From Deltaproteobacteria bacterium (GTDB lineage: Bacteria; Desulfobacterota; DSM-4660; Desulfatiglandales; Desulfatiglandaceae): 10,447 nucleotides of DNA. Location of the stretch: contig QMLZ01000087.1 in the NCBI GenBank assembly GCA_003646995.1, positions 1-10,447 of the forward strand. Reading direction: 5' to 3'. Each line of letters starts with the position of its first letter. Positions within the stretch are counted from its first letter, which is position 1. Shown piece after piece: positions 2,264-8,920 of this stretch. The translations under genes and the position numbers were made by a program. The notes under the pieces were generated by a model that saw only the letters and a list, made by a program, of their open reading frames with translations, ran no database searches and was not told where the DNA came from.

Positions 2264-2923
2264 ATGAAAATATTCGACGGCCTTGAGGCTTTCCTGTGGA
2301 CAGACCCTGCAACCAACAACTGTAATACCTATCTTATAACAGGGGAGAAAAATATCCTGATAGACCCTGGGCACTATCACCTCTTCGGTCATGTGCTCGA
2401 CAACCTGTCTTTGCACTCTCTATCCTTGGCAGACATTGACCTGGTCATCATAACCCACGGCCACCCGGACCACATCGAGGCGCTTAAGCGATTTGAAGGC
2501 TCATCGGTCCTGGTCGCAATCGGTGAGCGGGAATTTGACTTTATTAAACAAGTAGCCCCCCACTACGGTGAAGCCTTGGGTATGCCTAATTTTGAACCCC
2601 AAATCCTCCTTCGCGATGGAGACTTAGAATTAGATGGAATTAATCTTGAAGTTATAACATCGCCCGGTCACTCCCCGGGATCTATCTGTCTTTTTTGGAG
2701 GGAAAAAAAGGCCCTATTCACTGGAGACGTGGTCTTTAACGGAGGTATTGGAAGAACCGATCTTCCAGGAGGAAGCGGCGAAGAGCTCAAGTCCAGCATC
2801 CGAAGATTATCCCAGCTGGACATTGAATACCTGTTGCCAGGGCACGGAGAAATATTAGTGGGTTCCCATCATATAAGGGCCAACTTCCAAGAAATCGAAA
2901 GTTTTTGGTTTGGGTATATATGA
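2264..2923 (+). CDS. MBL-fold metallohydrolase (glyoxalase II-like)
   Basis: This 219-residue protein belongs to the metallo-beta-lactamase superfamily, which binds two metal ions and often hydrolyses thioesters or works in redox chemistry. All family metal ligands are visible: the THGHPDH motif at 64-70 (His65, His67, Asp69, His70), His136 in SPGHSPGS, Asp155 in FTGD and His194 in PGHGE. The pattern matches short glyoxalase II-like hydrolases of bacteria, and it lacks the C-terminal substrate-binding domain of true glyoxalase II. The substrate cannot be named from sequence. The ATG at 2264 follows a good purine-rich ribosome binding site (GGGAGAAGGA). It has its own promoter and is separated from the next plus-strand gene by a repeat-rich spacer, so it is probably monocistronic. 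Confidence 0.9.
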   Translation: MKIFDGLEAFLWTDPATNNCNTYLITGEKNILIDPGHYHLFGHVLDNLSLHSLSLADIDLVIITHGHPDHIEALKRFEGSSVLVAIGEREFDFIKQVAPHYGEALGMPNFEPQILLRDGDLELDGINLEVITSPGHSPGSICLFWREKKALFTGDVVFNGGIGRTDLPGGSGEELKSSIRRLSQLDIEYLLPGHGEILVGSHHIRANFQEIESFWFGYI

Positions 2924-3158: not shown

Positions 3159-4091
3159 ATGACACCAAAAAAAAGACACACAAGACCAAGCATTGATTTC
3201 GACCTCAGGCAGCTTGAAATCTTCTGTAAAGTGGTGGAACTCAAGAGCTTCTCCCGGGCCGCAGAGGCCGTGTACCTGGCCCAGGCATCTGTGAGCGAAA
3301 GGATCGCAACCCTCGAAGCCATGGTTGGCGCTAAATTGCTCGACCGTCTGGGACGTACCGTGGTTCCGACCGCAGCAGGGGAAATGCTTTACAAGCATGC
3401 CCTGTCCTTGCTGGAACTCAAGAGAAAGGTCTGCCTTGAGATGGAAGACTTCCTGGGGATAAAAAGAGGAGAAATTAGGGTGGGAGGCAGTACTATTCCG
3501 GGCGAGTATATCCTCCCCCGCATCATAGGGAAGTTCCACCGCGAGTTTCCAGGGATATCGGTAACCTTGATTGTTGGAGACACCCAACTCATAGAATCGA
3601 AGGTAACAGAGGGGCGGCTGGAATTGGGAGTCATAGGATCCCGTAGCTCTAACCCCAGTATTCATCAGCAGGAGCTATGGGAAGACGAGCTGGTTGTGGC
3701 GGTTCCCACTTCTCATCCCTGGGCCAAAAAGAAGTTGGTAAGCATTGAAGACCTTGTCAAGGAGCCCTTCATTGTTCGAGAGCAGGGATCAGGAACCCTT
3801 AAGATGTTCCAAGACCACTTGAGTGGGCTTGGATTCACAGGCATTGAAGGATTTAAGGTAGTGGCCTCTCTTGGGTCTTCCACCGCGGTTAAGGAGGGCA
3901 TAAAATCAGGGCTTGGTGTTTCGGTTTTGTCAGAGCGGGCCGTCGAAACTGAGGTAAAGGCTGGAATTCTAAAGCCTGTCAAAATAAAGGGATTGCCCAT
4001 GAAGCGAAAGTTCTATCTCATCCAGGACAAAAGAAGGGAGGCCTCTCCCCTGTGCAGGACAATGGTGGATTTTTTAATAAAGGGGATTTAG
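3159..4091 (+). CDS. LysR-family transcriptional regulator, probably selenium-metabolism associated
   Basis: This is a 310-residue LysR-type DNA-binding regulator. The winged helix-turn-helix lies at about residues 16-75 (LRQLEIFCKVVELKSFSRAA, then QASVSERIATLE). A linker helix and a two-lobed effector-binding domain follow from about residue 100 (REIR-like VGGSTIPGEYILPRIIGKF) to the C-terminus. The STIPGEYILP stretch and overall pattern remind me of the LysR subgroup that co-occurs with selenium metabolism genes; that is recollection, not a search. The link is strengthened because the stop codon lies only 9 nt before an apparent selenoprotein gene in the same orientation. The ATG at 3159 lies in a repeat-derived stretch and has no visible ribosome binding site, and the N-terminus is about 10 residues longer than usual. 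No better start is present in frame. Confidence 0.93.
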   Translation: MTPKKRHTRPSIDFDLRQLEIFCKVVELKSFSRAAEAVYLAQASVSERIATLEAMVGAKLLDRLGRTVVPTAAGEMLYKHALSLLELKRKVCLEMEDFLGIKRGEIRVGGSTIPGEYILPRIIGKFHREFPGISVTLIVGDTQLIESKVTEGRLELGVIGSRSSNPSIHQQELWEDELVVAVPTSHPWAKKKLVSIEDLVKEPFIVREQGSGTLKMFQDHLSGLGFTGIEGFKVVASLGSSTAVKEGIKSGLGVSVLSERAVETEVKAGILKPVKIKGLPMKRKFYLIQDKRREASPLCRTMVDFLIKGI

Positions 4092-4096
4092 AGGAA
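4091..4096 (+). promoter_or_regulatory. Ribosome binding site of the TusA-like selenoprotein gene
   Basis: GAGGAA at 4091-4096 ends 4 nt before the ATG at 4101 (GAGG alone ends 6 nt before it). It is a textbook Shine-Dalgarno placement. It supports 4101 as a genuine start, even though the frame meets TGA 14 codons later. No similar site precedes any in-frame start after the TGA. Confidence 0.75.
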
Positions 4097-4100
4097 TCAG

Positions 4101-4325
4101 ATGATGGAAACAGGAGATATAGTAGACTATAGGGGCGACTGCTGAAAGGCCTATTTGGACGTAGGTTTATGTCTCAGGATATTGCACCCCGGTGAGTCCT
4201 TTGCATTTATCATAGAGCTTGAGAAGCTTGAGAAAATAAAGAAGGTGATCCAGCATAACCAAGGAGAAATAGTCGCTCAAGAAGATCTGCCCAATGCTGT
4301 CAAGCTGACAGTAAAAAAGGTTTAG
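4101..4325 (+). CDS. TusA/SirA-like selenoprotein with in-frame TGA (Sec15)
   Basis: Reading TGA at 4143-4145 as selenocysteine gives a 74-residue protein ending at TAG 4323-4325. TusA-family proteins are small beta-alpha-beta sulfur carriers whose catalytic Cys sits in a Cys-Pro motif. Here strand 1 is DIVDYRGD and the motif is Cys14-Sec15. Helix 1 follows (KAYLDVGLCLRIL), then the family PGE turn (30-32), strand 2 (SFAFIIE), helix 2 (KLEKIKKVIQHNQGEIVAQE) and a final strand (AVKLTVKKV). Cys14 is 16 residues before Pro30, the same spacing as Cys19 to the PGE proline in E. coli TusA, so Sec replaces the proline. Coding potential on both sides of the TGA and a strong ribosome binding site argue against a spurious ORF. 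A Pro codon cannot become TGA by one base change, which argues against a simple nonsense mutation. The gene follows the LysR gene by 9 nt. A role in selenium or sulfur trafficking is inferred. A fresh pseudogene is the alternative. Confidence 0.8.
4157..4174 (+). promoter_or_regulatory. Putative bacterial SECIS element
   Basis: Just after the in-frame TGA, bases 4157-4163 pair with 4168-4174. The core is GACGTA with TATGTC plus a closing G-U; one internal pair is also G-U. The apical loop is GGTT (4164-4167). The loop starts 18 nt after the TGA and has G in its first two positions. This fits the published bacterial SECIS model, in which the apical loop lies roughly 16-37 nt downstream with a guanine at its start, and the GGU loop resembles that of E. 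coli fdhF. The stem is modest, and a competing hairpin (4147-4153 with 4162-4168) is possible. Confidence 0.6.
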
Positions 4326-4974: not shown

Positions 4975-6039
4975 CTATTTGCCAAACGGACATATGGGAT
5001 AATGGCACTTTTCACAGTTCAGGCAAAGACCGCCGTGGGCCATCTCCGCCAAGGTCCTTCGCGTTATTTTCTCCCCTGCCAGCACCCTAGGTAGCATAAG
5101 GTCGAATATAGTGGCCTTGTAATAAAGAACACATGCTGGCAATCCTAGAACAGGGATCCCCTTCACTCTCGCGTAAAGGAACATCGCCCCGGGCAGAACA
5201 GGACTCCCATAGACTAGGTCTGTAGCGCCAGCCTCGCTAATACCCACCCTACTAACGTCATCCGGGTCAACACTCATACCTCCGGCCACGAGAATGAGCT
5301 CCATGCCTTTTTCAGCATAGTTAATTATTGCATCCCTTATAATGTCCTTTTCATCAGGGCAGAATGTGATTTCCTCCAAGGGGCAGTCAAATTCTCCAAG
5401 CTTTTTTCTTAGGATGGGCGCGAACTTGTCGTTTATCCGGCCGTAATATACCTCGTTACCTGTAATAACAGCACCGGTCCTCATTTTCGCGAACTTTTTG
5501 ACTGAAAAAATTCCACCCGCCTCCTTCGCTACCCCAACGGCCTGAAGCAGAGACTCTTCCCGTATCACCAAAGGGATAGCCCTGGTGCCTGCCACGGCAT
5601 CTCCCTCGCGCACAACGTCATTGTTATGCCTTGCAGAGCACGTCACATCAGGCACCATATTGAATTCCGTTAAGGCCTCCACATTGACCTTTAAGAGCCC
5701 TGCAACAGAGGCTCTCAAGGTTATCTTTCCCTCGGCCGGCTTTCCGTTATGCTCAACATTAGTTCCGCACAGGGCGTCTGCCAACATCAGTGCCGCGTCA
5801 TCCTCGTGATATTCTCCTTCAGAGATATGCAGGACAAACAAATGCTCCTTGCCCAGTCGCCTCAGGTGAGGCAAGTCCTCTTCCCTTACGATATGGCCCT
5901 TCTTAAAGGCTGGTCCCTTGAACTGGCCGGGCCTGATTTCCGTAATATCATGAGCAAGGACTTTTCCTACTGCTTGCTCAAGGGGAATGATTTCCGCCAT
6001 TGACGGGAACTTGCTCCTTAGGGTGGCTTCGCTTCTCAT
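4975..6039 (-). CDS. MoeA-like molybdopterin-binding protein with C-terminal Cys cluster
   Basis: From the ATG at 6039 this is a 354-residue relative of MoeA/gephyrin, which insert molybdenum into molybdopterin. The N-terminal part has the MoeA-like start (AVGKVLAHDITEIRPGQFKG). The MPT-binding fold runs at about residues 186-320, with LVAGGMSVDPDD (about 250-261, in place of the usual TGG.S.G..D) and GIPVLGLPACVLYYKATIFD near its end. The C-terminus carries four cysteines spaced C-x2-C-x2-C-x4-C (339, 342, 345, 350), a likely metal-binding tail. Such proteins often accompany molybdenum hydroxylases, including selenium-dependent ones, which is relevant next to a putative selenoprotein. The frame extends to 6114, but that start lies inside the T-run of the upstream terminator and before the inferred transcription start. 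A GGGAGAG site precedes 6039. A shorter start at 6000 is possible. Confidence 0.88.
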   Translation of the reverse strand: MRSEATLRSKFPSMAEIIPLEQAVGKVLAHDITEIRPGQFKGPAFKKGHIVREEDLPHLRRLGKEHLFVLHISEGEYHEDDAALMLADALCGTNVEHNGKPAEGKITLRASVAGLLKVNVEALTEFNMVPDVTCSARHNNDVVREGDAVAGTRAIPLVIREESLLQAVGVAKEAGGIFSVKKFAKMRTGAVITGNEVYYGRINDKFAPILRKKLGEFDCPLEEITFCPDEKDIIRDAIINYAEKGMELILVAGGMSVDPDDVSRVGISEAGATDLVYGSPVLPGAMFLYARVKGIPVLGLPACVLYYKATIFDLMLPRVLAGEKITRRTLAEMAHGGLCLNCEKCHYPICPFGK

Positions 6040-6085
6040 CTGGGTTTCTCTCCCTCTTCCTTTTGAATATTGCAAATTGGAATAA

Positions 6086-8140: not shown

Positions 8141-8920
8141 ATGTGCCTTCTGGTCTTCGCATATAAATTCCACCGCGACTATCCCCTGGTGCTTGTAGCC
8201 AACCGCGATGAGTATTATGACAGGCCTACTGCGCCTGCCCGGTTCTGGGAGGACTTTCCCCATCTTCTGGCGGGAAAAGACCTAAAAGGTGGAGGTACGT
8301 GGCTCGGTGTCACCAGAAGCGGCCGTATTGCCGCTATAACAAACTATCGTGACCCAAGGAATCAAAAAACGGGAGCGCCTTCCCGGGGTATGCTTGTGAG
8401 GGATTTTTTGGTTGGAGGACAAACCCCTCTTGAATACCTTGAGTCTTTGGCGCAGAGAGCGGATCAATACAACGGGTTTAATCTGATTGTGGGAGACAAG
8501 GAAGGCCTTTACTGGTACTCTAACAGGGGCCCGGGGATAAGAGGCCTGGAACCTGGAATACACGGGCTCAGCAACCACCTCCTGGATACTCCCTGGCCCA
8601 AGGTCGTGAGAGCAAAGGAGGCGCTCTTGGATCTTCTTAGTGGTGACCGCTTCCCTGCCGATGAAGAGTTTTTCAAGCTTTTGTTAGACCAAACCAGACC
8701 CCGCGACTCGGAGCTCCCCGATACCGGAGTTGGTCTTGAATGGGAAAGAATACTTTCGCCCATTTTCATAACCAGCCCGGTGTACGGTACAAGGTCTTCC
8801 ACCTTGGTATTCATGCATGCAAATGGAAAGGTACGGTTCGTAGAAAGGTCCCACGACAAAGAGGCACCCAATCCCAGGGTGAGAGAGTTCAGTTTCACTC
8901 TCGACCAAGGATTTATCTAG
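8141..8920 (+). CDS. NRDE (TANGO2-like) family protein
   Basis: This 259-residue protein belongs to the NRDE/TANGO2 family, named for the Asn-Arg-Asp-Glu motif seen here at residues 21-24. The start MCLLVFAY places Cys at position 2. This resembles the N-terminal nucleophile of Ntn-hydrolase-like proteins once Met is removed. Other family signatures are RPTAPARFW (28-36), GKDLKGGGTWLGVTRSGRIAA (45-65) and the TNYRDP turn, with GLSNHLLDTPWPKV in the middle. TANGO2 homologues have been linked to haem and lipid handling, but the bacterial reaction is not settled. The start is fixed by AAGGAGA ending 5 nt before the ATG. It is probably transcribed alone from the AT-rich divergent region and converges on the phosphomutase gene. 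Confidence 0.93.
   Translation: MCLLVFAYKFHRDYPLVLVANRDEYYDRPTAPARFWEDFPHLLAGKDLKGGGTWLGVTRSGRIAAITNYRDPRNQKTGAPSRGMLVRDFLVGGQTPLEYLESLAQRADQYNGFNLIVGDKEGLYWYSNRGPGIRGLEPGIHGLSNHLLDTPWPKVVRAKEALLDLLSGDRFPADEEFFKLLLDQTRPRDSELPDTGVGLEWERILSPIFITSPVYGTRSSTLVFMHANGKVRFVERSHDKEAPNPRVREFSFTLDQGFI

Follow-up and report, generated by a model that had tools for sequence, protein, structure and literature searches.

A predicted small selenoprotein of probable TusA fold, with adjacent cysteine and selenocysteine, in Desulfobacterota

The stretch analyzed here (the window) comprises 10,447 nucleotides of contig QMLZ01000087.1 from a Deltaproteobacteria bacterium of the phylum Desulfobacterota (assembly GCA_003646995.1). 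At 4101..4325 on the forward strand it contains a 74-codon reading frame with an in-frame TGA at codon 15 (4143..4145), which we read as selenocysteine (Sec); a Cys codon, TGC (4140..4142), lies directly 5′ of it, and a hairpin of the selenocysteine insertion sequence (SECIS) type follows at 4157..4174. Translation may start at ATG 4101 or ATG 4104, positions 9 and 12 nucleotides past the stop codon of a LysR gene (3159..4091), and a putative ribosome-binding site read in the sequence, AGAGGA (4090..4095, forward strand), is plausible for either. With TGA translated as U, the product has 74 residues (MMETGDIVDYRGDCUKAYLDVGLCLRILHPGESFAFIIELEKLEKIKKVIQHNQGEIVAQEDLPNAVKLTVKKV) and ends at a TAG stop. 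Direct reading and translation thus agree with an earlier note on this DNA, which had described the frame and its ribosome-binding site and had held that standard open reading frame (ORF) calling splits the gene; mechanical listing of ORFs of at least 50 amino acids (aa) in this frame yields only a 56-aa TTG ORF (4155..4325). Our analysis indicates that the stretch almost certainly encodes a small selenoprotein.

Codons were read in 38 copies of the gene: the window, loci L001 to L007, 28 further loci, and G317 and G108 (L016 and L024 were left out as duplicates of L001 and L007). All 38 have Cys-TGA at the site and none has TGG, a conservation far beyond chance; the Cys is present in all 36 rows of the wider family alignment and profile (A3) and in two further copies. 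The starting Met, the Cys, and the Sec are the only invariant residues in the alignment, and Sec is followed by K, R, A, S, or W across the 36 rows, never by Pro; the Pro or random codons that the earlier note had proposed looking for at the Sec site in homologs occur in none of the 38 genomic copies. At least seven loci (L001 to L007) emerged from a scan of genome contigs with two conserved peptide patterns; their source metagenome-assembled genomes (MAGs) are titled Desulfobacteraceae, Deltaproteobacteria, or Thermodesulfobacteriota, and 7/7 have the TGA.

Searched in six frames with a profile, 395 genomes of the phylum yielded 31 with a match, each match containing exactly one TGA. In the same 395 genomes, the wider A3 profile found the family in 32 (E ≤ 1.3e-18); every match contains one or more in-frame TGAs, and a second stop seen in a few of them is the gene end in the copies read. 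The family boundary in the A3 search is sharp, the next-best match standing at E 1.2e-5, and the six-frame matches that rank just under the family are mostly TusA proteins. Nine weaker A3 matches (E 1.2e-5 to 0.008) were read as possible Cys forms of the selenoprotein and rejected, none qualifying on its sequence: seven have the motifs of TusA-type proteins (Cys-Pro in six, that Cys missing in the seventh) and two, one of them a short match, are apparently unrelated; Pfam, applied to four of the nine, placed two above the TusA cut-off and one below it and showed one to be unrelated. One weak match to the family profile, L133 (G060:C2:148839-149000), is TusA-like (PF01206, 21.8 bits against a cut-off of 28.6) with the catalytic Cys-Pro replaced.

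Among 5.77 billion called proteins, 68 distinct family members were found, the window's own fragment included: 48 start downstream of the TGA, 19 read Trp after the Cys, and one (P0062) is without the motif. Called versions that start past the TGA or show Trp (67/68) bear out the statement that the gene is unannotated. P0020, from Dissulfurirhabdus thermomarina, has its annotated start after the TGA and is identical to the tail of L042 from residue 2 on; a further truncated member occurs in a record named Desulfosoma/Desulfacinum. None of the 68 has Cys at the Sec site in a search that needs shared 5-residue words, so that distant Cys forms could escape it; only the Sec form, and no Cys-containing member, was found in our searches. 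The viral contigs searched contain no relative, and the phage records searched with 3159–4325 gave no near match.

The hairpin (forward strand) starts 11 nucleotides past the UGA and has a stem of seven pairs (4157–4163 with 4168–4174; +15..+21 with +26..+32 counted from the T of TGA) closed by an apical GGUU loop (4164–4167) with an invariant G at 4165. In 36 aligned copies (35 distinct), 98.0% of 245 cells are paired, against a shuffled mean of 93.6% (0/500 shuffles reach the observed value); double changes occur in five of the seven stem pairs (equalled by 2/500 shuffles) and in 14 cells (0/500), and the covariation score is 0.374 versus 0.278 (0/500), statistics to be read with the caveat that related sequences can exceed shuffles. 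Shifting the partner by one to three columns lowers pairing to 26–64%. The fdhF control of E. coli carries GGUC at the same +22..+25, which we take to be its SECIS loop, and G+23 is invariant in 36/36 family copies; the loops of the family and of the fdhF SECIS share one register. A covariance model trained on 27 other loci, with the window and L001 to L007 held out, scores window positions 4143–4187 at 49 bits (E 1.2e-7) and recovers each of L001 to L007 at 38.7–48.6 bits, and nothing else in 77.6 kb exceeds 11.4 bits; it does not find fdhF and is therefore family-specific. Rfam returned nothing on the window at E ≤ 1. In 15 window-type copies, synonymous identity in the hairpin codons is complete for Asp (105/105 pairs), Val (69/69), and Cys (105/105) and stands at 38/55 for Gly, with codons 11–55 as comparison at 1070/2560. 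By these comparative computations, the predicted SECIS-directed decoding of Sec is strongly supported.

The codons downstream also look constrained: over 45 codons beyond the hairpin in the 15 window-type copies, the median ratio of nonsynonymous to synonymous change (dN/dS) is 0.14, computable in 21/105 pairs, probably so few because synonymous sites are saturated. The neutral decay for which the earlier note had suggested a check is thus not seen, and the selenoprotein that it proposed is upheld by the 38/38 Cys-TGA sites, the hairpin, and this constraint, as is its Cys-Sec pair by the Cys codon directly preceding every TGA.

The decoding machinery was surveyed in 37 Desulfobacterota genomes that carry the gene (carriers). 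A tRNA-Sec scoring at least 69 bits, a threshold chosen since matches near the 47-bit cut-off also arise in control genomes, is present in 33/37 (exceptions G002, G003, G212, and G353). The selB gene exceeds its cut-off in four of seven locus genomes (G003, G005, G006, and G007) and reaches E ≤ 4.5e-103 in 31/32 carriers of the phylum sample (exception G001); selB, a strong tRNA-Sec, or both occur in 36/37 carriers.

The selenoprotein very probably has a TusA fold. AlphaFold models of two subfamilies show this fold with confidence across the TGA site, and 7/36 members match PF01206 (best E 1.9e-4), the window sequence not among them. The TusA/SirA likeness claimed in the earlier note is accordingly borne out by family profile and fold comparison, the alignment being weak for the window sequence alone; the window protein has no NCBIfam match, and a sequence profile search of the PDB gave two weak matches (E 0.6 and 1.6), neither of them TusA. 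The residue mapping in the note fared less well. It had placed Cys14 at the catalytic Cys and Sec15 at the invariant Pro; a profile–profile alignment with 10 TusA-type sequences instead lays DYRGD-C-U over D-x-R-G-x-x-C without gaps, which puts Sec at the position of the catalytic Cys, the family's Cys just before it, and Lys at the CP proline, and the earlier mapping was rejected on this ground. On this alignment, Sec would occupy the TusA catalytic position with a vicinal Cys; the prolines of the TusA CPxP motif are absent from the family.

The LysR gene upstream (3159..4091, forward strand) encodes a regulator of the selenium-metabolism family NF040786 (LysR_Se; 284 bits, cut-off 250). By tblastn with the window's LysR, such a gene is adjacent upstream on the same strand in 13/15 testable window-type loci (the window, L001 in two pieces, L002, L005, L006, L007, L068, L069, L070, L071, L072, L094, and L095), at 57–66% identity (86% for one L001 piece) and with a gap to the selenoprotein gene ranging from slight overlap to about 230 nucleotides; none was detected by tblastn at L003 and L073, and L004, where the locus is cut, falls outside the 15. 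The NF040786 cut-off is exceeded by 12/13 of these regulators, the broken L001 copy falling short; in that MAG contig, the regulator's gene (about 970–1820) is split between two frames. No LysR_Se was detected by tblastn in the fetched flanks of other subfamilies. A metallo-beta-lactamase-fold (MBL) hydrolase gene (2264..2923, forward strand) is the upstream member of a gene cluster, MBL–LysR_Se–selenoprotein, that recurs among the loci; counting the window, 11 loci have an MBL-fold gene upstream, and at L003 it occurs without LysR.

Downstream of the selenoprotein gene, a gene for a MoeA-like protein (4978..6042, reverse strand; PF00994) with a Cys-rich tail has relatives similarly placed on the opposite strand at L069 and at 8/10 loci of the DSRKDCU subfamily (one by partial match), the full set being the window, L069, L085, L086, L088, L091, L092, L093, L096, and L127; the two subfamilies share only about 30% identity. 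An FmdE-type protein is also encoded nearby in four DSRKDCU loci (Pfam on the L085 copy). The connection of the MoeA-like protein to the selenoprotein is uncertain; it may run through molybdopterin. Six loci of the DVSLRLRF subfamily (L075, L076, L078, L079, L081, and L082) have a gene for a CbiK-type cobalt chelatase downstream, and five of these six, as well as L077, have a molybdopterin oxidoreductase gene upstream (Pfam on the L075 copies). Farther along the window, 8141–8917 (forward strand) encodes a TANGO2-family protein (PF05742, E 9e-77). The window-type subfamily has no visible signal peptide; in-frame upstream extensions at L037, L040, L041, L042, and L044 resemble, by eye, lipoprotein or secretion signals (e.g., FLAGC and VSSC), and strong internal Shine-Dalgarno sites favor the short form in some extended members.

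In the known TusA (PF01206), the sulfur carrier of the E. coli IscS–TusA system, a catalytic Cys stands in CPxP, whereas the family here has Sec, an extra preceding Cys, and no such prolines. TsuB/YeeD, the TusA-family partner of the thiosulfate transporter TsuA/YeeE, likewise has CPxP with Cys, as described in the available part of PMC11073785. YedF (TIGR03527) combines SirA/TusA and DsrE domains and offers the closer likeness of a TusA-type domain linked to selenium metabolism; the 74-residue selenoprotein is instead single-domain, without DsrE, and the portions available of two papers report no Sec in its TusA-type domain (PMC5322559, PMC2432076). An adjacent Cys-Sec is shared with several CU-motif families in Table 1 of a 2026 inventory (SaoL, HgcA, SaoC, MbdU, KCU-star, and CopZ-like form 2), which differ in listed family name and domain, none being listed there as TusA/PF01206; no TusA/PF01206 entry appears among the 119 families and subfamilies in the part of that inventory available to us, and its YeeE/YedE-family selenoprotein (PF04143, GUxSG) has Sec listed under the transporter family rather than a TusA domain (PMC13188914). 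The literature searched, consisting of open-licence papers, contained no TusA-type selenoprotein, which does not imply absence from all print. The family is apparently an unlisted, conserved bacterial selenium protein.

We propose that UGA codon 15 is decoded as Sec by SelB and tRNA-Sec under direction of the hairpin, and that Sec, at the N-terminus of helix 1, stands in for the catalytic Cys on which TusA carries its chalcogen. The selenol would most likely accept an atom of sulfane sulfur or of selenium, or reduce a sulfur or selenium compound; the neighboring Cys could then resolve the adduct through a selenenylsulfide and release the product, by analogy with the CPxP Cys of TsuB/YeeD acting on thiosulfate. 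In the window subfamily, the selenoprotein is encoded with, and perhaps controlled by, LysR_Se, so that its supply may follow selenium status. Taken as a whole, a TusA-fold selenoprotein with SelB-decoded UGA and Sec chalcogen chemistry is, in our judgment, the best explanation and a likely one; the specific carrier or reductase chemistry of the Cys-Sec site, deduced by analogy, is advanced only tentatively.

Several observations weigh against this explanation. The window protein alone matches no Pfam family at E ≤ 1, and hhalign against TusA-type sequences, at E 2e-5, assigns a probability of only 77%. In the hairpin, extra pair types are weaker evidence (33/500 shuffles reach the observed number), and two Leu codons vary freely (synonymous identity in 49/105 and 42/105 pairs). 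The machinery survey covered only relatives' genomes; G002 alone is without both a full selB and a strong tRNA-Sec; and selB exceeds the cut-off in 352/395 genomes of the phylum, so that its co-occurrence with the selenoprotein gene is compatible but not discriminating and was dropped as support. Some relatives, in the DSRKDCU subfamily, may be exported or lipoproteins, which would ill suit a purely cytoplasmic carrier. One distant metagenomic member, P0062, has no Cys-Sec motif at its N-terminus, which may reflect a form without Sec or an artifact of sequencing or frame, and 19 database proteins have Trp at the Sec site.

Those Trp proteins (P0002–P0007, P0010, P0011, P0013, and P0030–P0039), from contigs listed as 502 to 986 bases, are what favors decoding of UGA as Trp under an alternative code, or by non-specific read-through. 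Judging from the protein records, they probably result from gene calling that applied code 4 to TGA, and the genomic TGA in 38/38 copies with no TGG, together with a SECIS-type hairpin placed as in fdhF and the presence of tRNA-Sec, makes this decoding very improbable. Still more improbable is a true stop, leaving a pseudogene or two small ORFs: mechanical listing does split the gene, but in the copies read the frames are open and alignable on both sides of the TGA, the confident fold spans it, the downstream codons look constrained, and the hairpin covaries. Pseudogene, two-ORF, and alternative-code accounts were therefore rejected.

The remaining alternatives accept the selenoprotein and concern what it does. 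It may be a thiol redox enzyme in which Cys-Sec cycles between dithiol/selenol and selenenylsulfide, reducing peroxides or disulfides on a TusA fold that is a mere scaffold; the Cys and Sec as sole invariants besides the starting Met, the loss of the CPxP typical of TusA carriers, and the several CU-motif families in Table 1 of a review that, in the part available, considers most uncharacterized selenoproteins redox-functional (PMC13188914) speak for this, whereas the fold and the placement of Sec agree with chalcogen carriers and the neighbor LysR_Se is a selenium regulator. We regard the redox role as a credible possibility, if not the expected one. An unlikely alternative is that the gene acts as a regulatory element, full-length product appearing only with sufficient selenium and serving mainly as a selenium-status signal for LysR_Se. 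The adjacency of LysR_Se in the 13 loci fits such a role, as does the account in the available part of PMC11097638, where the mechanism of selenium sensing and signaling through the LysR-type HrsM is still unexplained; the other subfamilies, with no LysR_Se in their fetched flanks, and the good conservation of the protein domain itself argue against it. That Sec-borne selenium, or the protein's own selenium-dependent synthesis, passes selenium or a signal to LysR_Se is correspondingly doubtful.

The family occurs in about 8% of the sampled Desulfobacterota genomes (32/395). One main route of selenoprotein discovery pairs Sec with Cys homologs, and the finding of no Cys-containing member may explain why searches of this kind missed it; the authors of deep-Sep state, in the part of their paper available, that their method may miss selenoproteins without Cys homologs (PMC12013277). 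The predicted protein would have Sec as the catalytic residue in a fold of chalcogen carriers, with one subfamily encoded beside a selenium-associated LysR regulator, and the question of selenium delivery or sensing thereby becomes testable with a protein of 74 residues. If the link to selenium status is real, the family would be a carrier of selenium whose own synthesis depends on selenium.
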